From: Kineococcus mangrovi | GTDB taxonomy: Bacteria > Actinomycetota > Actinomycetes > Actinomycetales > Kineococcaceae | Direction of reading: 5' to 3' | DNA length: 64,000 nucleotides | Assembly (NCBI RefSeq): GCF_041320705.1 | Contig: NZ_JBGGTQ010000002.1 | Span: 496,001-560,000, forward strand | In this document: piece by piece, positions 17,119-28,356 of the stretch | Position numbering within the stretch: position 1 is the stretch's first letter | Layout: every line of letters begins with the position of its first letter | Made by a program: the position numbers and the translations under genes | Notes under the pieces: generated by a model | The model's input: only the letters and a program-made list of their open reading frames with translations | The model's database searches: none | Told to the model about the DNA's origin: nothing

Positions 17119-19998
17119 TCAGTCCTCCGGCAGGGCGTCGGCGAGGAGTTCGGCGAGGTGCCGGGGGCGAACCCCGGCGAGGTTGTCGGACTGCGTCCGG
17201 CAGGAGTACCCGTCGGCGACGACGAGGGCGTCACCGCGCTCGCGCAGGGCGGGCAGGAGGGCGTGCTCGGCGACCTTCACGGACACCTCGTGGTGCCCCT
17301 TCTCGGCGCCGAAGTTCCCCGCGAGGCCACAGCACCCCGACAAGACCTGCGCGTCGACACCGGCCTTGGCGAGCAACCGCTCGTCGGGGCCGAAACCCAT
17401 CGTGGCGTGCTGGTGGCAGTGCGGCTGCACGACGGCCTTCACCGGGCCGTCCGGGTCCAGCTGCGGCGGCACCCAGTCCGGGCGCTGCTCGGCGATGAGT
17501 TCGGCCAGGGTCCGCACCCGGTGCTCGAGCGCGTGGGCGCGGGGGTCGTCGGGCAGGAGTTCGGCGGCGTCCTCGCGCAGCAGCGAGGTGCAGGACGGTT
17601 CCAGGCCCACCACGGGCACGTTCGAGTTCCCCAGCGCGTCGAGGGAGGACCGCAACTGCCGCTTGGCCCCGTCGAGCTGACCGGTCGAGACCCACGTCAG
17701 ACCGCAGCACACCTGCTTCTGCGTCAGCCGCACGGAGAACCCCAGGTGCTCCAGCAGCTTCACGGCCGCCTTGCCCACCTCGGGGGAGAAGTGCTCGGTG
17801 AACGAGTCCACCCACAGCAGGACGGGCTGACCGTCCTCGCGGACCGGTCGCCGGTCGAACCAGGCGCGGAACGTCTCGGACGCGAACGCCGGCAGCGGCC
17901 GGTTCTGGTCCACGCCCCCCAGGGCCCGCGCCGTCCACGCCAGCGCCGGGACCGACGTCAGCCGGTTCACGACCTTCGGCGCGATGGACGCCAGCTTCGA
18001 CCAGCGCGGCAGCCAGCCGAGCAGGTAGTGGTTCATGGGCCGCACCCGGCCTGCGTAGAACTTGTCGAGGAACTCCGCCTTGTAGGTCGGCATGTCGACG
18101 CCGGCCGGGCAGTCGGCGCTGCACCCCTTGCAGGACAGGCAGAGGTCGAGGACGTCCTTGACCTCCTGCGAGCGCCACCCGTCGGTCACGAGGGTCCCGT
18201 TGGCCATCTCCTGCAGCAGGCGGGCCCGGCCGCGGGTGGAGTCCTTCTCGTCGCCGGTCGCCAGGTAGGACGGGCACATGACCCCGCCGGTGTCGGCGCG
18301 GCACTTGCCGACGCCGACGCAGCGGTGCACGGCGCGCGTGAGGTCGCCCTCGTCGCGCGAGTAGGCGAACTTCAGCGGCATCCCGAGGGCGTGCGCGGGA
18401 CGCGCCGCGGGGACGCGCAGGTCGGCGGCGACGTCCGCCGGGCGCACGATGACCCCGGGGTTCAGCAGGTCGGCCGGGTCGAAGGCGCGCTTGACCTGCT
18501 CGAAGGCGGTGATCGCCGCACCGTCGTACATGAGCGGCAGCAACCCGCCGCGGGCGCGGCCGTCGCCGTGCTCCCCGGACAGCGACCCGCCGTGGCGGGC
18601 GACGAGCCGGGCGGCGTCCTCCAGGAAGTCCTTCGCGGCGGCCCCGCCGCCGTCCTCGTACAGGGGGAAGTCGATGCGGACGTGGATGCAGCCGTCGCCG
18701 AAGTGCCCGTACGCCAGGCCGTCGACGCCGTGGGAGGCCATGAGCGCGTCGAACTCGCGCAGGTACTCCCCCAGCTTCGCGGGGGGCACCGCCGCGTCCT
18801 CCCAGCCGGGCCACGCCGGCTGCCCCTCGGGAGAGCGACCGGCGAGACCGGCCCCGTCCTCGCGGATGCGCCACAACGTCTTCGCCTCGGCGGCGGTCGG
18901 GATGACGACGGAGTCCAGGGCGCGGGAGCCGGCGACCATCGCCCTCGCCGCGGCCAGCGACTCCTCGGGGGTCTCGCCACCCATCTCGACGAACAGCCAG
19001 CCGTTGCCGCTGGGCAGCCCCTCGACGGACCCGCCACGGCGGACGACGGCGTCGGCCAGCCGTCGGTCGATGCCTTCGACGGCGAGCGGGGCGTGCTCCA
19101 GCAGCGCGGGGGTCGCGTCGGCCGCCTCGTGCATCGAGGCGTAGCCGAGCACGACGAACGTCGTCGACGGCGCCTGCCGGACGAGACGGACGCGGGCACG
19201 CAGGATGGTCGCGAGCGTCCCCTCGGACCCGGTGAGGAGACGGGCCAGGGCCGTCCCCGTGGGGCCGCCGGTCTCCGGCAGGAGGTGTTCCAGGGCGTAC
19301 CCGGAGACCTGCCGGCCGAAGGTGGCGAAGGACGTCCGGATCGTCGCGAGGTGCTGCGAGGCGACCGTGCGCAGCTCCTCGACCAGCTCGGCGGGTGGGG
19401 CGTCGGTCCAGTACCGGCGGCCGTGCCCGTCGAGGACCTCCAGGGCGAGCACGTTGTGGGAGGTGCGGCCGTAGGCCAGGGCGTGCGAGCCGCAGGCGTC
19501 GTTGCCGATCATCCCGCCGACGGTGCAGCGGGCGTGGGTGGAGGGGTCGGGCCCGAACCGCAGCCCGTGCGGGGCCGCCTGCCGCTGCAGGTCGTCGAGG
19601 ATCACGCCCGGTTCGACGAGCGCGGTCATGGACTCGGCGTCGATGTCCAGCACGCGGTGCAGGTGGCGGGAGAAGTCGAGCACGACGCCGGGGCCGATGG
19701 CGTTGCCCGCGACCGACGTGCCCGCCCCGCGGGAGGTGAAGGGGACCCCCAGCTCGCGGCAGACGCCCCAGACGGCGACGACGTCCTCGACCGAGCGCGG
19801 GAAGACGACGACGAGCGGGACGACGCGGTAGTTCGAGGCGTCGGTCGTGTACTCGGCGCGGCGGCGGCCGGACGCGTCGACGGTCCCCGACCCCGGGGTC
19901 GTCCCCAGGGCGGCGTCGAGGGCGGCGACCAGCTCCGCGGTCGTGGGGGTCGTCGCCTCCGCCGTGGCCTGGGCGCGCGCGTCGTCGATGAGGGTCAC
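17119..19998 (-). CDS. FAD/4Fe-4S D-lactate or D-2-hydroxyacid dehydrogenase (YdiJ-like)
   Basis: 959 residues. N-terminal FAD-binding type 4 domain with PFTSRGAGTSVAGNAIGPG and GGMIGNDACGSHALAYG, then the FAD-oxidase C-domain with YGHFGDGCIHVRIDFPL. The ferredoxin-like part has CVGVGKCR, CPSYLATGDE and CLSCKGCSADCPAGVDM. Two CCG domains follow with QVCCGLTWVSTG and SGCCGLAGNFG. Electrons would pass from FAD through FeS centres to the quinone pool. GTG at 19998; 20 in-frame codons further upstream are not conserved-looking. D-lactate or D-2-hydroxyglutarate is the likely substrate. Confidence 0.92.
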   Translation of the reverse strand: MTLIDDARAQATAEATTPTTAELVAALDAALGTTPGSGTVDASGRRRAEYTTDASNYRVVPLVVVFPRSVEDVVAVWGVCRELGVPFTSRGAGTSVAGNAIGPGVVLDFSRHLHRVLDIDAESMTALVEPGVILDDLQRQAAPHGLRFGPDPSTHARCTVGGMIGNDACGSHALAYGRTSHNVLALEVLDGHGRRYWTDAPPAELVEELRTVASQHLATIRTSFATFGRQVSGYALEHLLPETGGPTGTALARLLTGSEGTLATILRARVRLVRQAPSTTFVVLGYASMHEAADATPALLEHAPLAVEGIDRRLADAVVRRGGSVEGLPSGNGWLFVEMGGETPEESLAAARAMVAGSRALDSVVIPTAAEAKTLWRIREDGAGLAGRSPEGQPAWPGWEDAAVPPAKLGEYLREFDALMASHGVDGLAYGHFGDGCIHVRIDFPLYEDGGGAAAKDFLEDAARLVARHGGSLSGEHGDGRARGGLLPLMYDGAAITAFEQVKRAFDPADLLNPGVIVRPADVAADLRVPAARPAHALGMPLKFAYSRDEGDLTRAVHRCVGVGKCRADTGGVMCPSYLATGDEKDSTRGRARLLQEMANGTLVTDGWRSQEVKDVLDLCLSCKGCSADCPAGVDMPTYKAEFLDKFYAGRVRPMNHYLLGWLPRWSKLASIAPKVVNRLTSVPALAWTARALGGVDQNRPLPAFASETFRAWFDRRPVREDGQPVLLWVDSFTEHFSPEVGKAAVKLLEHLGFSVRLTQKQVCCGLTWVSTGQLDGAKRQLRSSLDALGNSNVPVVGLEPSCTSLLREDAAELLPDDPRAHALEHRVRTLAELIAEQRPDWVPPQLDPDGPVKAVVQPHCHQHATMGFGPDERLLAKAGVDAQVLSGCCGLAGNFGAEKGHHEVSVKVAEHALLPALRERGDALVVADGYSCRTQSDNLAGVRPRHLAELLADALPED

Positions 19999-20059: not shown

Positions 20060-20941
20060 TCACCGGAGCAGCGCGAGCCGTCGTGGGCTGACGGTGACGG
20101 TGATCCGCTGGCCGCGGCTGACGGTGAGCCGGTCGTCCTCGAGGCCGTCGCCGAAGACGACGAGCTCGTCGGACAGGACGTCGAGGGTCAGCGACTGGTC
20201 GGTGAGGGCGCCGGCGACGAGGTCGGCCCCCGTCGTGCGGGACGGCCAGGCCTCGCGGACGAACCAGGCCAGCGCGGGGTCGACGGGGGTCGGCAGCGCA
20301 GTCGCGGCCCGCCCCCGGGACAGGGAGGCGAGCCACCCCGTCGCCCCCGTCCCGGTCCCGGTGACGACCCCGCTGGAGGCCTGTTCCTCGCGCCGGTCCC
20401 CCGCGGTCAGCACGTAGCGGGCGGTCTGGTGGCTGCGGTGGCCGACGAACACCTCGTTGAGGGCGTGCAGCTCCTGCCCGTCGTCGGTGCTGGCCCGGAC
20501 CATCGTCCGCAGTTCACACGAGCCACCGGAGACGCTGCGGTGCAGCAGGTCTCGTGCCGCCGAGGCGGGGTGCGGGACGAGGACACCCGCGTTGCGGCCC
20601 GGCAGTGGGTCGATGCCGACGACGACCTGCCCGGACAGGTGCTTGGCGACGTTGGCGACGAGGCCGTCCTGGCCGACGACCACGACGACGTCCTCGGGGG
20701 CGAAGAGGAACCGGGACAGGTCGGCGCGTTCCACCGTCCCGGTCCGCCAGTCGGCGGGGACCGCGGCCGCCACGGCGGCGAGCGCGCGGCGCTGCTGCTC
20801 GTCGGCCTCCTCCAGCTCGGTGAGGCAGCGGCCGCGGGTGCGGAGGAAGAAGTCGGCGGCGCCGGGGGTGCCGTGCCGGGCGACGGCCTCGGCGTAGGCG
20901 GTGCGGCGGTGCACGAGGACGGCGCGGGGCGCGAGGCTCAC
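20060..20941 (-). CDS. NAD-kinase-like protein
   Basis: 293 residues. The sequence VVVVGQDGLVANVAKHLSG followed by VVGIDPLPGRN resembles the nucleotide-binding start of the ATP-NAD kinase fold, with GQDG where classical kinases have GGDG. LHALNEVFVGHRSHQTARY matches the NE loop. GTGTGATGWLASL is a further glycine-rich segment. It is divergent from standard PpnK, so phosphorylation of NAD is plausible but not shown. The GTG start overlaps the SPFH stop by 4 bases. With NrtR operators upstream of the operon, a role in pyridine nucleotide balance is likely. Confidence 0.75.
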   Translation of the reverse strand: MSLAPRAVLVHRRTAYAEAVARHGTPGAADFFLRTRGRCLTELEEADEQQRRALAAVAAAVPADWRTGTVERADLSRFLFAPEDVVVVVGQDGLVANVAKHLSGQVVVGIDPLPGRNAGVLVPHPASAARDLLHRSVSGGSCELRTMVRASTDDGQELHALNEVFVGHRSHQTARYVLTAGDRREEQASSGVVTGTGTGATGWLASLSRGRAATALPTPVDPALAWFVREAWPSRTTGADLVAGALTDQSLTLDVLSDELVVFGDGLEDDRLTVSRGQRITVTVSPRRLALLR

Positions 20942-21933
20942 GGCTGCACCAGCTTCGCGAGGGCCCCCGTCACGACGTCGGGGGTCAGGACGAGGGTGCC
21001 GACGTTCGGCAGCTGCCCGGCGAACTCGCGCAGCGCCAGCGTCAGGAGCACCTCCGGCGGGGTCCCGGCGATCGCGGCCATCCGGGCGGCCTCGGCCGCG
21101 GCGTCCGCCTCGCCCTGGGCGCGGCGGGCAGCGGCTCGGGCCTGGGCGAGGCGTTCCTCGCGCTCGGCCTCCGCGGCGGTGCGGATCGCGTCGGCGGCCG
21201 CCGCGTCCTCGACGCTGCGGCGCTGGTTGGCGCCCCTCTGGGCGACGAGCTGCTCCTCGCGGCGGGCGAGCTCGATCTTGTTCTGCAGCTCGTTCCCGCT
21301 GATGGCCCGCTCCCGCTCGACGGCGAGGGCGCGGCGTTCGGCGGTGGCGCGGTCGGCCTCGGTCTGCAGCTGCTCGCGCGTCGGCGTCCCGAGGGCCTTC
21401 TCGACGTCGGGGTCGGGCCGGACGGCGACGACGCGGGCGTCGACGAGGGCGAGACCGGTCTGGGCCAGGCGGCTGTCGGCGAGCAGCCCCGCGGTGATGC
21501 GCTCGCGGGTCAGCGTCACACCGGTGACCAGGACGTCCCGCAGCGCCATCCCGGCGAGGACGTCGAGGACGTGCTGCTGCGCGGTCTCGGTGAGCAGCCC
21601 GGCGATCTGCTGCAGCGGCGCGGCCCGCCAGCGGCCGGTGGCCGGGTCGAGGGAGAAGTCGACGCGGGTCGCGGCGAGCGCGGGGTCCTCGATGCGGAAG
21701 GTGACGGTGGCCTGGACGGTGACGTCGACGAAGTCGGCGGTGCGGGCGTGCATCAGCAGCGGGAGCTCGCGGTCGTCGACGGGCAGCTCCGAGAGCGTCG
21801 CGCTCAGCGGGCGGAACCAGAACGCCTGCCCCGTTCCGGAGTGGGCGACCTTCCCGCGGCGCTGGTGGATGACGTGGGTGGTCGGGGTGCTGCGCAGGTG
21901 CCGCGCGAACGGGTAGCGGGTGATGTCGGCCAT
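20938..21933 (-). CDS. SPFH/band 7 (prohibitin/slipin-like) protein
   Basis: 331 residues. The SPFH domain spans about 25-190 (QRRGKVAHSGTGQAFWFRP, VDVTVQATVTFRIEDP). A long charged Ala/Glu/Arg-rich coiled coil follows (about 195-290), as in flotillin-type scaffolds. There is no clear N-terminal membrane helix, so attachment may be peripheral. ATG behind GGAGG. It is the first gene of a two-gene operon with the NAD-kinase-like gene, divergent from nrtR and facing two NrtR-type palindromes. Confidence 0.88.
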   Translation of the reverse strand: MADITRYPFARHLRSTPTTHVIHQRRGKVAHSGTGQAFWFRPLSATLSELPVDDRELPLLMHARTADFVDVTVQATVTFRIEDPALAATRVDFSLDPATGRWRAAPLQQIAGLLTETAQQHVLDVLAGMALRDVLVTGVTLTRERITAGLLADSRLAQTGLALVDARVVAVRPDPDVEKALGTPTREQLQTEADRATAERRALAVERERAISGNELQNKIELARREEQLVAQRGANQRRSVEDAAAADAIRTAAEAEREERLAQARAAARRAQGEADAAAEAARMAAIAGTPPEVLLTLALREFAGQLPNVGTLVLTPDVVTGALAKLVQP

Positions 21934-21964: not shown

Positions 21965-21985
21965 TTGTCGTCGAGATGACGATAA
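21965..21985. promoter_or_regulatory. NrtR-type operator copy 1
   Basis: TTGTCGTC (21965-21972), a 5-base spacer and GACGATAA (21978-21985) form an imperfect palindrome with one mismatch to copy 2. It is the copy nearer the SPFH gene. Confidence 0.7.
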
Positions 21986-21999
21986 GCCTCCTCCTCCCC

Positions 22000-22020
22000 T
22001 TGTCGTCAAGTCGACGACAA
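22000..22020. promoter_or_regulatory. NrtR-type operator copy 2
   Basis: TTGTCGTC (22000-22007), AAGTC and GACGACAA (22013-22020) form a perfect 8-bp palindrome. The centre is 35 bp from that of copy 1. It covers the -35 region of nrtR, so autorepression is expected. Confidence 0.75.
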
Positions 22021-22037: not shown

Positions 22038-22706
22038 GTGAGCCACCCCGTCCTCGCCGTGACCGTCGACCTCGTCGTCCTGACCGTGCGCGGGGGAGCC
22101 CTGTGCGTGCTGCTCGTCGAGCGCGGCGAGGAACCGTTCCTGGGCAGGTGGGCGCTGCCCGGCGGGTTCGTGCGCCCGGACGAGGACCTGCCCGGCGCCG
22201 CGGCGCGCGAACTCGCGGAGGAGACCGGCCTGCCCCGCGGCCTCGTCCACCTCGAGCAGGTCGCCACCCACGGCGCTCCCGACCGCGACCCCCGCCAGCG
22301 CGTCGTGACCGTCTGCTACCTGGCCCTGGCCCCCGACCTGCCGGTCCCGCGGGCCGGCACCGACGCCGCCGACGCCCGGTGGGTCCCGGTCGCCGACCTG
22401 CCCGACCTCGCCTTCGACCACGACGTGCTGCTGGCCGAGGCCGTGGAGCGGGCCCGCGCCAAGCTCGAGTACACGCCGCTCGCCACGGCCTTCTGCGGCG
22501 AGGAGTTCACCGTCGCCGAACTCCGCCGCGTCTACGAGGCCGTCTGGGGCACGGCGCCGGACCCGCGCAACTTCCACCGGAAGGTCACCGGTGCGACGGG
22601 TTTCCTGGAACCGACGGGTGCGACGACGACGCGCGACGGGGGCCGGCCGGCCGGGCTGTTCCGGCGCGGCGCGGCCGCCACCCTGCACCCGCCGCTGCTG
22701 CGCTGA
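22038..22706 (+). CDS. nrtR: NrtR-family Nudix transcriptional regulator
   Basis: 222 residues. The N-terminal Nudix domain (about 5-140) has a complete Nudix box, GFVRPDE then RELAEETGL, so pyrophosphohydrolase activity may remain. The C-terminal winged helix (about 145-220) includes LEYTPLATAFCGEEFTV and DPRNFHRKV, the DNA-binding part of NrtR. NrtR regulators sense ADP-ribose or related nucleotides and repress NAD metabolism genes. Two palindromes lie between it and the divergent SPFH/NAD-kinase-like operon, so it probably controls both directions. Confidence 0.9.
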   Translation: MSHPVLAVTVDLVVLTVRGGALCVLLVERGEEPFLGRWALPGGFVRPDEDLPGAAARELAEETGLPRGLVHLEQVATHGAPDRDPRQRVVTVCYLALAPDLPVPRAGTDAADARWVPVADLPDLAFDHDVLLAEAVERARAKLEYTPLATAFCGEEFTVAELRRVYEAVWGTAPDPRNFHRKVTGATGFLEPTGATTTRDGGRPAGLFRRGAAATLHPPLLR

Positions 22707-22746: not shown

Positions 22747-23541
22747 GTGTCGCCCTACCCCGCCCTCGTCGCGGCGGGGTTCCGCAGGTGGTCCACCTAC
22801 CGCGCCGCGACAGCCGCGGGAGCCCTCACGAACTCGGTCTTCGGCGCCATCAAGGCGGCCGTCCTCGTGGGGACGGTGACGTCGGCCGGGGCCTCCGTCG
22901 CGGGGTACGACCCGGCCCAGGCCGCGACGTTCGCCTGGACCACCCAGGCGTTCCTCGCCCCCGTCAGCGTCTTCGCCGACGACGAGCTCGCCCGCCGCGT
23001 CCGCACGGGCGACATCGCGGTCGACCTCGCCCGCCCGGTGGACCCGCAGCTCGCGGCCTAGGCCACCGACCTCGGCCGGGCGGCGTTCACGCTGCTCCCC
23101 CGCGGCGCCCCACCCCTCCTGCTCGGCGCCCTGCTGACGGGTCTGGCGCTGCCGGCGTCCCCGCTGCCGTACCTGCTGGGCGTCGTGAGCCTCGTCGCCG
23201 GGGTCTCCGTGAGCTTCGCGGCGCGCTGGATCGTCAACCTCACCGCGTTCTGGCTCACCGAGGTCCGCGGGATCCTCCTGCTCTACACCGTCCTCGCCAC
23301 GACCCTGACGGGGTTGTCGATCCCGGTGGCCTGGTTCCCGCCGTGGTTGAACGCCCTCGCCCACGCCACCCCGTTCCCCTCGATGCTGCAGACTCCCGTC
23401 GACGTCGTCCTCGGCCGCGCCGCGGACCTCGACGCGCTGCGGCTGCTCGGTGTGCAACTGGGGTGGCTCGCCGCGCTGCTCGCGGCCGGCCGGGTCCTCC
23501 TGGCCGCCGGGGCGCGGCGTCTGGTGGTGCAGGGTGGCTGA
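22747..23541 (+). pseudogene. ABC-2-type permease (ABC2_membrane_6/DUF990) interrupted by in-frame TAG
   Basis: The frame from the GTG at 22747 reads a typical exporter permease start (FRRWSTYRAATAAGALTN, then DLARPVDPQLAA), hits TAG at 23059-23061, and continues in the same frame as ATDLGRAAFTLLPRG through further membrane helices to TGA at 23541. With the stop read as an amino acid it would be 264 residues, normal for the family. Tryptophan (TGG) is the likeliest ancestral codon since one base change gives TAG. The downstream permease and ATPase are intact and overlap tightly. Either a recent nonsense mutation, readthrough, or a sequencing error. Confidence 0.8.
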
Positions 23542-26929: not shown

Positions 26930-28356
26930 TGCCGACGATCTCCGCTTCCGGGCTGGCCCAGCTCCTCGGCGACTGGCGCGACGACGGTCCCGCCCTGCGG
27001 GCGCTGGCCGACCGCGTCCGGCTGCTGCTGCTCGACGGCCGGGTGCTCTCGGGCAGCCGGTTGCCGGCCGAGCGCGAGCTCGCGGCGGCGGTGGGGGTCA
27101 GCCGCACCACGGTGGCGGCGGCCTACGCCCGCCTGCGCGACAGCGGGCACCTGCGCAGCGTGCGCGGCTCCGGCAGCGTGATCACCTTGCCCACGGGCTC
27201 CCGCAGCGGTTCCGCAGAACCCCTCACCGCCGCCGGCGGTCTCGTGAACCTCACGCGCGCCGTCCTGCCCGCGGCCCCCGTCCTGGCCGGCGCGGCCCGC
27301 GCCGCCGCCGAGGACCTGCTCGCCCACCTGCCCGGGGACGGCTACGAACTCCTCGGCGTCCCGTCCCTGCGGGCGGCCCTCGCCGAGCGCTACACCGCCC
27401 GCGGGCTGCCCACGGCCCCCGAGGAGGTCCTCGTCACGCTCGGCGCCCAGCACGCGGTGGGTCTGCTCTGCCGCGCGTTCCTGGCCCCCGGCGACCGCGT
27501 CCTCGTCGAGTCCCCCGGGTACCCGTACGCCGTCGACGCCGCGCGCGGTGTCGGCGGGCGCCCCGTCGCGGTGCCCGTCACCGCCGGGACCGGGGACACC
27601 CCCGGTGGCTGGGACGAGGAGGCGCTGGAGGACGCCTTCGCCCGGACCCGGCCGGCGCTGGCCTACCTCATGCCCGGGTTCCAGAACCCCACCGGCGCCG
27701 TGATGCCCCCGGCGCTGCGGCACCGCGTCGTCGAGCTGGCCCGGAGGTACGGGACCCGGCTCGTCGTCGACGAGACGACCAACGACCTCGCGCTGGACGG
27801 GCCGGTGCCCCCGCCGTTCCCCGCCGACGCGGTGCACGTCGGGTCGGCGGCGAAGTCGCTGTGGGGCGGGTTGCGGATCGGCTGGGTGCGGGCCGACGCC
27901 GCCACCGTGCAGCACGCGGCGGCGCACCGCACCCCGTGGGAACTCGGGACCCCCGTCCTGGAGCAGCTCGTCGTCGCCCGCTGCCTGCCGCAGCTCGACG
28001 ACGTCCTCGTCGACCGGTGCGGTGAACTGCGGCAGCGGCGGGACGTCCTCAGCGCGGAACTGGCGGCCGCGCTCCCGGAGTGGGACGTCCCGCACGTCCC
28101 GGGTGGCCTGGCCCTGTGGGTGCGCCTGCCCACGGCCACGAGTTCCGCGCTGGCCCTCGCCGCGCAGCGGCACGGGGTGCTGCTGACCCCCGGGCCGCGG
28201 TTCGGGGTGGACGGGGCGTTCGAGCGGTACCTGCGGCTGCCGTTCGGCGCCGACGCCGGCACGTTGCGCACCGTCGTCGTCCCGGCCCTGGCGCGGGCGT
28301 GGCGGGACACGGGTGCCGTCGCACCCGTGTCCCGCCGGCTCGAAGTGATCGTCTGA
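26929..28356 (+). CDS. MocR/YczR-family regulator (GntR HTH fused to aminotransferase fold)
   Basis: 475 residues. N-terminal winged helix (about 10-80) with LPAERELAAAVGVSRTTVAA. The fold type I aminotransferase-like domain (about 100-460) has GAQHAVGLLCRAF, PGFQNPTGAVMP, DETTNDLALDG and the PLP lysine in HVGSAAKSLWGGLRIGW. PLP is sensed or an effector is bound; catalysis is not expected. Divergent from the YczE-like gene, so it is the likely regulator of that gene. The last 19 codons run through a perfect 16-bp hairpin, suggesting the original stop was earlier. Confidence 0.92.
   Translation: MPTISASGLAQLLGDWRDDGPALRALADRVRLLLLDGRVLSGSRLPAERELAAAVGVSRTTVAAAYARLRDSGHLRSVRGSGSVITLPTGSRSGSAEPLTAAGGLVNLTRAVLPAAPVLAGAARAAAEDLLAHLPGDGYELLGVPSLRAALAERYTARGLPTAPEEVLVTLGAQHAVGLLCRAFLAPGDRVLVESPGYPYAVDAARGVGGRPVAVPVTAGTGDTPGGWDEEALEDAFARTRPALAYLMPGFQNPTGAVMPPALRHRVVELARRYGTRLVVDETTNDLALDGPVPPPFPADAVHVGSAAKSLWGGLRIGWVRADAATVQHAAAHRTPWELGTPVLEQLVVARCLPQLDDVLVDRCGELRQRRDVLSAELAAALPEWDVPHVPGGLALWVRLPTATSSALALAAQRHGVLLTPGPRFGVDGAFERYLRLPFGADAGTLRTVVVPALARAWRDTGAVAPVSRRLEVIV
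28301..28336. terminator. Perfect 16-bp hairpin inside the MocR 3' end
   Basis: GGCGGGACACGGGTGC (28301-28316), loop CGTC, GCACCCGTGTCCCGCC (28321-28336). It sits within the MocR coding frame, 20 bases before the stop and 32 bases from the end of the convergent permease gene, where a bidirectional terminator is expected. Confidence 0.65.

Follow-up and report, generated by a model that had tools for sequence, protein, structure and literature searches.

Two palindromes in the gap between nrtR and a divergently transcribed operon, which encodes an SPFH protein and a NAD-kinase-like (NADK-like) protein, are very probably the operators through which a dedicated NrtR paralogue controls both that operon and its own gene. 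The window, a 64,000-nucleotide stretch of the Kineococcus mangrovi genome, contains nrtR on the plus strand (22038..22706, GTG start at 22038) and the SPFH gene on the minus strand (20938..21933, ATG start at 21933), separated by a 104-bp gap in which both palindromes lie. This reading is built on sequence, namely the operator pair, its conservation, its overlap with a promoter, the co-inheritance of regulator and target, and retained protein motifs, with the NAD-kinase fold supplied by a predicted model. From these features we infer binding and repression by NrtR, the nature of its ligand, the enzyme activity, and an association of the SPFH protein with the NADK-like protein.

The gene identities given in the preliminary description hold. 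The product of nrtR comprises a Nudix domain with a canonical Nudix box and an NrtR winged-helix domain (PF00293, E 8.4e-25, and PF21906 NrtR_WHD, E 3.6e-13, both passing the gathering cut-off), with D175-PRNFHRK as its recognition segment. The operon (21933-20060, minus strand) begins with the SPFH/Band_7 protein of 331 residues, in which the SPFH domain is followed by a helix of ~108 residues, and continues with the NADK2-like protein of 293 residues (20060..20941, minus strand), which gives weak profile matches, has the predicted fold of a NAD kinase, and retains GxDG (D92) and N162-E163. The stop of the SPFH gene and the start of the NADK-like gene share 4 bp (GTGA at 20938-20941), an arrangement suggestive of translational coupling. 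A FAD-linked oxidase gene further downstream (17119-19998, minus strand) was rejected as a member of the operon, being nearby in only one of 80 named loci, L046, itself a Kineococcus. On the other side, the ABC-2-type permease-like gene that adjoins nrtR (22747-23541, plus strand) is broken by an in-frame TAG at 23059-23061; in G006, G008 and G005 its two halves are collinear and share a single frame, which suggests a recent nonsense mutation, an error of sequencing or a case of stop readthrough.

Operator 1, the nrtR-proximal site, distal to the SPFH gene, occupies 22000..22020 and reads TTGTCGTC-AAGTC-GACGACAA, a perfect 8+8 palindrome of the form TTGTCGTC-N5-GACGACAA. Operator 2, proximal to the SPFH gene, occupies 21965..21985 and reads TTGTCGTC-GAGAT-GACGATAA, or TTGTCGTC-N5-GACGATAA, with one departure from the palindrome. 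Measured from start to start they are separated by 35 bp, and from end to end by 14 bp, so that the arrangement first proposed, a perfect palindrome and a second copy with one change 35 bp away in the divergent gap, is confirmed. Scanning of the window for the palindrome pattern with up to 3 mismatches gave 4 matches against 0.26 expected, a count reached in none of 100 shuffles. In a search for further copies across the 4.36-Mb Kineococcus genome, operators 1 and 2 were the sole matches at 0-1 mismatches, and two more appeared at 2 mismatches, one of them (window position 27761) within a coding ORF. Core matches such as ACTTCGTCAGCAGGACGATGA occur in several Kineococcus species, among them G002, which has no operon; they are without the TT..AA ends and were rejected as operators.

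The operator pair is conserved well beyond Kineococcus. Searching for proteins similar to the NADK-like sequence yielded 80 named loci. Nearly all belong to Actinomycetota, and they come from organisms such as Arthrobacter, Streptomyces, Nocardioides, Cellulomonas, Mycolicibacterium and one Acidimicrobiales MAG. The SPFH gene lies ahead of the NADK-like gene in every one of these (cut by a contig end in L077 and L100), and a divergent nrtR adjoins the operon in 62. Across the class the distribution is patchy, with a NADK-like match in 66 of 395 genomes. Within 200 bp upstream of the SPFH gene, paired sites TTATCGTC-N5-GACGATAA were found in 74 of 78 loci, compared with 0.05% of 3900 Markov-shuffled control sequences; L101 and L102 have one site only, and L098 and L110 have no recognisable site. 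The palindrome, whose absence from orthologous operons had been named as grounds for abandoning the proposal, is thus present at both sites or at one in nearly all of them. The start-to-start spacing falls into two classes that differ by one helical turn: 44 loci have 33-34 bp, and another 26, mainly relatives of Arthrobacter, have 44-45 bp. The gene pair also occurs on a contig labelled Chloroflexi (L100, MAG VBII01000150.1), which may be of actinobacterial origin and mis-binned, or the result of transfer. In a Micropruina MAG (L092) the SPFH and NADK genes look fused; this was discounted, as the junction codon is ambiguous (X) and the sequence contains several other X residues.

Both sites overlap a predicted promoter of the SPFH operon (21979..22009, minus strand; TTGACG-N19-TATCGT). 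Read on the minus strand, operator 1 holds the −35-like TTGACG, and operator 2 begins TTATCGTC and holds the −10-like TATCGT. Of 78 orthologous operons, 70 have the pattern TTGAC-N16-19-TAnnnT upstream, compared with 0.13% in Markov-shuffled sequence. Its TTGAC keeps a fixed place in the distal site and hardly varies, even at loci whose outer palindrome has decayed. The −10 TA...T lies inside the proximal site in the 34-bp class; in the 45-bp class it falls between the sites and is followed by the proximal operator. A strict sigma-70 consensus scan of the window gave no promoter, and for this reason we count the promoter as a comparative prediction. A repressor needs operators at the −35 element and at or beside the −10 element, and the operator pair with its predicted promoter elements is a repressor-operator architecture of this kind.

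Three lines of evidence indicate that the regulator binding both palindromes is almost certainly the adjacent NrtR. The first is co-loss: Kineococcus G002, G004 and G010 have neither the SPFH gene, nor this nrtR, nor the TT..AA sites, their sole NrtR being a 43-44% identical protein that is also found in operon-bearing Kineococcus. Of 33 genomes from the order, all 10 that carry the operon have an nrtR with at least 66% identity, against one of the 23 that do not (G025, 62%); the association has a Fisher p of 1.2e-7, uncorrected for phylogeny. The second comes from a Streptomyces-like genus, probably Streptomyces itself, in which the nrtR orthologue and the operon share a contig but are separated by 0.9-2 Mb (G429, G422, G232 and G407). 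There the unlinked nrtR has TTATCGTCAGGCAGACGACTA or a near variant upstream and the operon retains its pair; the named Streptomyces loci L086, L088 and L094 have the same layout. The third is a correlation between recognition segment and operator, DPRNFHRK going with TCGTC and DRPNFRRK with TAGTC; ~60% identical paralogues with DRPNFRRK have TTATAGTC-N5-GACTATAA in the two that show a clear palindrome (L153 and L154). Strict genome-wide motif scans returned mostly operon sites, together with nrtR and pncB sites, and no control matches. In L153 and L154, both from Streptomyces, the palindrome upstream of the paralogue is a perfect TTTATAGTC-N5-GACTATAAA, and with the TCGTC clade these two form a natural pair for mapping the specificity residues of NrtR. 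A second NrtR-family protein, 44% identical, is encoded in the K. mangrovi genome itself (L235, G000:C3:112856-113455) and in the Kineococcus genomes searched; the 180 bp upstream of its gene in L235 contain no clear palindrome.

Other accounts of the palindromes fare poorly against these observations. The genome is GC-rich, TCGTC and GACGA are common words in it, and several core-only matches occur per genome, all of which would suit a chance origin in GTC/GAC-rich DNA; the window and genome counts, however, and a conservation far above the shuffled control contradict it, and we give it practically no credence. That a regulator other than NrtR binds the sites, the neighbourhood of nrtR being incidental, draws some support from the dissimilarity between this palindrome and the mycobacterial NrtR motif. 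It is nevertheless highly improbable, as the motif tracks the unlinked nrtR of Streptomyces, vanishes together with nrtR in Kineococcus, and shifts with the recognition helix.

NrtR-family proteins respond to ADP-ribose or NAD, with L-arabinose as the effector of the family member BtAraR (PMC4666351). By analogy with the family, the ligand of the Kineococcus NrtR is likely to be ADP-ribose or NAD, and is probably ADP-ribose. The protein is related by sequence to SoNrtR (3gz5, phmmer E 2.2e-30) and, as its best solved-structure match, to BtAraR (5bs6, E 7e-36). Against the ADPR-responsive equivalog NF050029 (NtrR) it scores 128.4 bits, below the curated cut-off of 400, and it is best described as a family relative and not as the equivalog itself. 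Of 62 NrtR homologues, 59 keep the Nudix box G-x5-E-x7-RE-x-EE-x-G intact, and MsNrtR and BtAraR have lost it. Members of this clade may therefore still be able to hydrolyse their ligand. Among the Streptomyces scanned, most genomes contain the motif core once more, and in the six loci examined (L202, L206 and L208-L211) it is a conserved palindrome with a TCGTC-N5-GACGA core directly 5' of pncB, the nicotinate phosphoribosyltransferase gene of NAD salvage, with a nicotinamidase gene downstream in five. This suggests that NrtR controls NAD salvage in Streptomyces and is the best in-silico evidence for a pyridine-nucleotide signal, although the outer bases of the pncB site differ (AT.TCGTC) and another NrtR paralogue could be acting there. 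No site was found upstream of pncB in Kineococcus or in the other non-Streptomyces genomes scanned, and the Kineococcus regulon seems to consist of nrtR and the operon only, with no tie there to NAD synthesis. Of the original proposal, then, the tie between the operon and NrtR is strongly supported, and the link to pyridine-nucleotide sensing is drawn by analogy with the family.

The NADK-like protein has no Pfam match, falling below the cut-off of the Pfam NAD_kinase model, and reaches at most 21.7 bits against NCBIfam, where the cut-off is 211; PF01513 gives weak matches in 31 of 50 homologues. Its predicted structure (pLDDT 93.1), in contrast, has a NAD-kinase fold (Foldseek E 7.8e-19). The closest fold is that of human mitochondrial NADK2 (7r4l; VIA-align Z 25.5, 276 residues aligned, rmsd 3.0, 20% identity), ahead of the bacterial NAD kinases at Z 20-22, and a profile search likewise finds NADK2 (E 4.5e-16). 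NAD kinases carry a GGDG motif, which here reads GQDG. GxDGL is present in all 79 homologues, with x nearly always Q, and NE...G in 73 of the 79. Since the Kineococcus genome also encodes two conventional NAD-kinase candidates (65-70 bits), the operon protein is a divergent NAD-kinase paralogue; on its motifs and modelled fold, we consider it somewhat more probable than otherwise that it has NAD-kinase activity. Its partner, the SPFH protein, matches PF01145 at 53.9 bits (cut-off 23.6), and Foldseek relates it to HflK/C, prohibitin and erlin. A membrane anchor is usual, and not universal, in SPFH/Band 7 proteins; no clear membrane segment was seen here, the highest 19-residue Kyte-Doolittle mean being 1.47, and only 1 of 78 homologues exceeds 1.6. 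In a PADLOC search for anti-phage defence systems, the Nudix domain gave a weak match to PDC-S07 and the SPFH and NADK-like proteins gave nothing; with just this weak match, a defence role for the locus was set aside.

Two rival readings accept the repressor and dispute what it senses or what it controls. NrtR might repress as described and respond to something other than a pyridine nucleotide, such as a sugar or another nucleoside diphosphate, leaving the operon untied from NAD status; within the same family AraR answers to L-arabinose (PMC4666351), and no NAD-synthesis gene was found in the Kineococcus regulon. The target operon nevertheless encodes a NADK2-like protein, the same core motif precedes pncB in Streptomyces, and the Nudix box is intact here, unlike that of MsNrtR; we regard such an effector as unlikely, though with a weight of its own. 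A better case can be made that the NADK-like protein is not an active NAD kinase and regulates the SPFH ring as a pseudokinase or a sensor that binds nucleotides. The canonical candidates elsewhere in the genome, the GQDG substitution and the failure to reach the Pfam model all favour this, but in the alignment D92 and N162 never vary, E163 hardly does, and the SSG and TGTGATGW segments line up with the corresponding segments of NADK2, so that a pseudokinase is a serious minority possibility.

Taking NrtR as the repressor and a pyridine nucleotide as its signal, we propose that one NrtR dimer would sit on the −35 element at operator 1 and another on the −10 element at operator 2, repressing the SPFH–NADK-like operon; because operator 1 directly precedes the nrtR start, NrtR would also repress itself. 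A product of NAD turnover, with ADP-ribose as the precedent in the family, would most likely bind the Nudix domain and relieve repression, and with its Nudix box intact NrtR may hydrolyse its own ligand and so reset the switch. Induction would yield an SPFH protein that forms rings and is either soluble or peripherally attached, and a divergent enzyme of the NADK2 type. The two would be translated jointly and would probably cooperate, plausibly to increase NADP(H), or to phosphorylate some related dinucleotide, while NAD is being consumed. More speculatively, a possibly enzymatically active, ADP-ribose-sensing NrtR might induce an SPFH cage that houses the NADK2-type kinase, so that actinobacteria would have an inducible, scaffolded module for NAD-to-NADP conversion or dinucleotide signalling in response to NAD breakdown; we offer this fuller picture only tentatively.

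Each of the three kinds of protein, NrtR regulator, SPFH protein and NAD kinase, is already known in its own right. Our literature search found no text joining NrtR with SPFH proteins or SPFH proteins with a NAD kinase; the founding paper on the NrtR regulon lay outside that search, and an earlier prediction is possible. To our knowledge, SPFH proteins are widespread and their bacterial partners and signals mostly unknown. An actinobacterial SPFH family here gains a fixed NADK2-like partner, a fixed regulator and a fixed operator pair, which makes its function testable. If the proposal is true, the NrtR family reaches past NAD synthesis and sugar use, and human mitochondrial NADK2 has a bacterial relative.

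The closest regulatory parallels are MsNrtR and BtAraR. MsNrtR controls the nadABC operon of Mycolicibacterium smegmatis from the motif GTTTTCGA-N7-TCGAAAAC, requires D167, N170 and R173 for DNA binding, and is released by ADP-ribose; its Nudix box is degenerate and hydrolase activity was not detected (PMC6800001). The Kineococcus protein resembles it in joining a Nudix domain to a winged helix, in its predicted autoregulation, in having a palindrome in the gap beside the target operon, and in residues D175, N178 and R181, which correspond to D167, N170 and R173. It differs in having two operators of the form TTATCGTC-N5-GACGATAA, an SPFH/NADK2-like target in place of de novo NAD synthesis, and an intact Nudix box. 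BtAraR, an NrtR-family regulator from Bacteroides, binds 21-bp semipalindromes, two of which stand in tandem before the target operon in most genomes (PMC4666351). The architecture, the 21-bp semipalindromes and the two sites before the operon are the same here, whereas BtAraR serves a sugar operon, takes L-arabinose as its effector and has lost the Nudix glutamates (PMC4666351). Human NADK2 is the closest solved structure to the operon's second protein by both profile and fold, including the SSG..TGTG and LNE segments; at 20% identity, the Kineococcus protein differs from it in being bacterial, in having GQDG for GGDG, and in being encoded with an SPFH protein under predicted NrtR control. 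Like HflK/C, prohibitin, erlin, flotillin and stomatin, that SPFH protein has a long helix after its SPFH domain, and it is set apart from them by the lack of a visible hydrophobic N-terminal membrane segment and by its NADK2-like operon partner.
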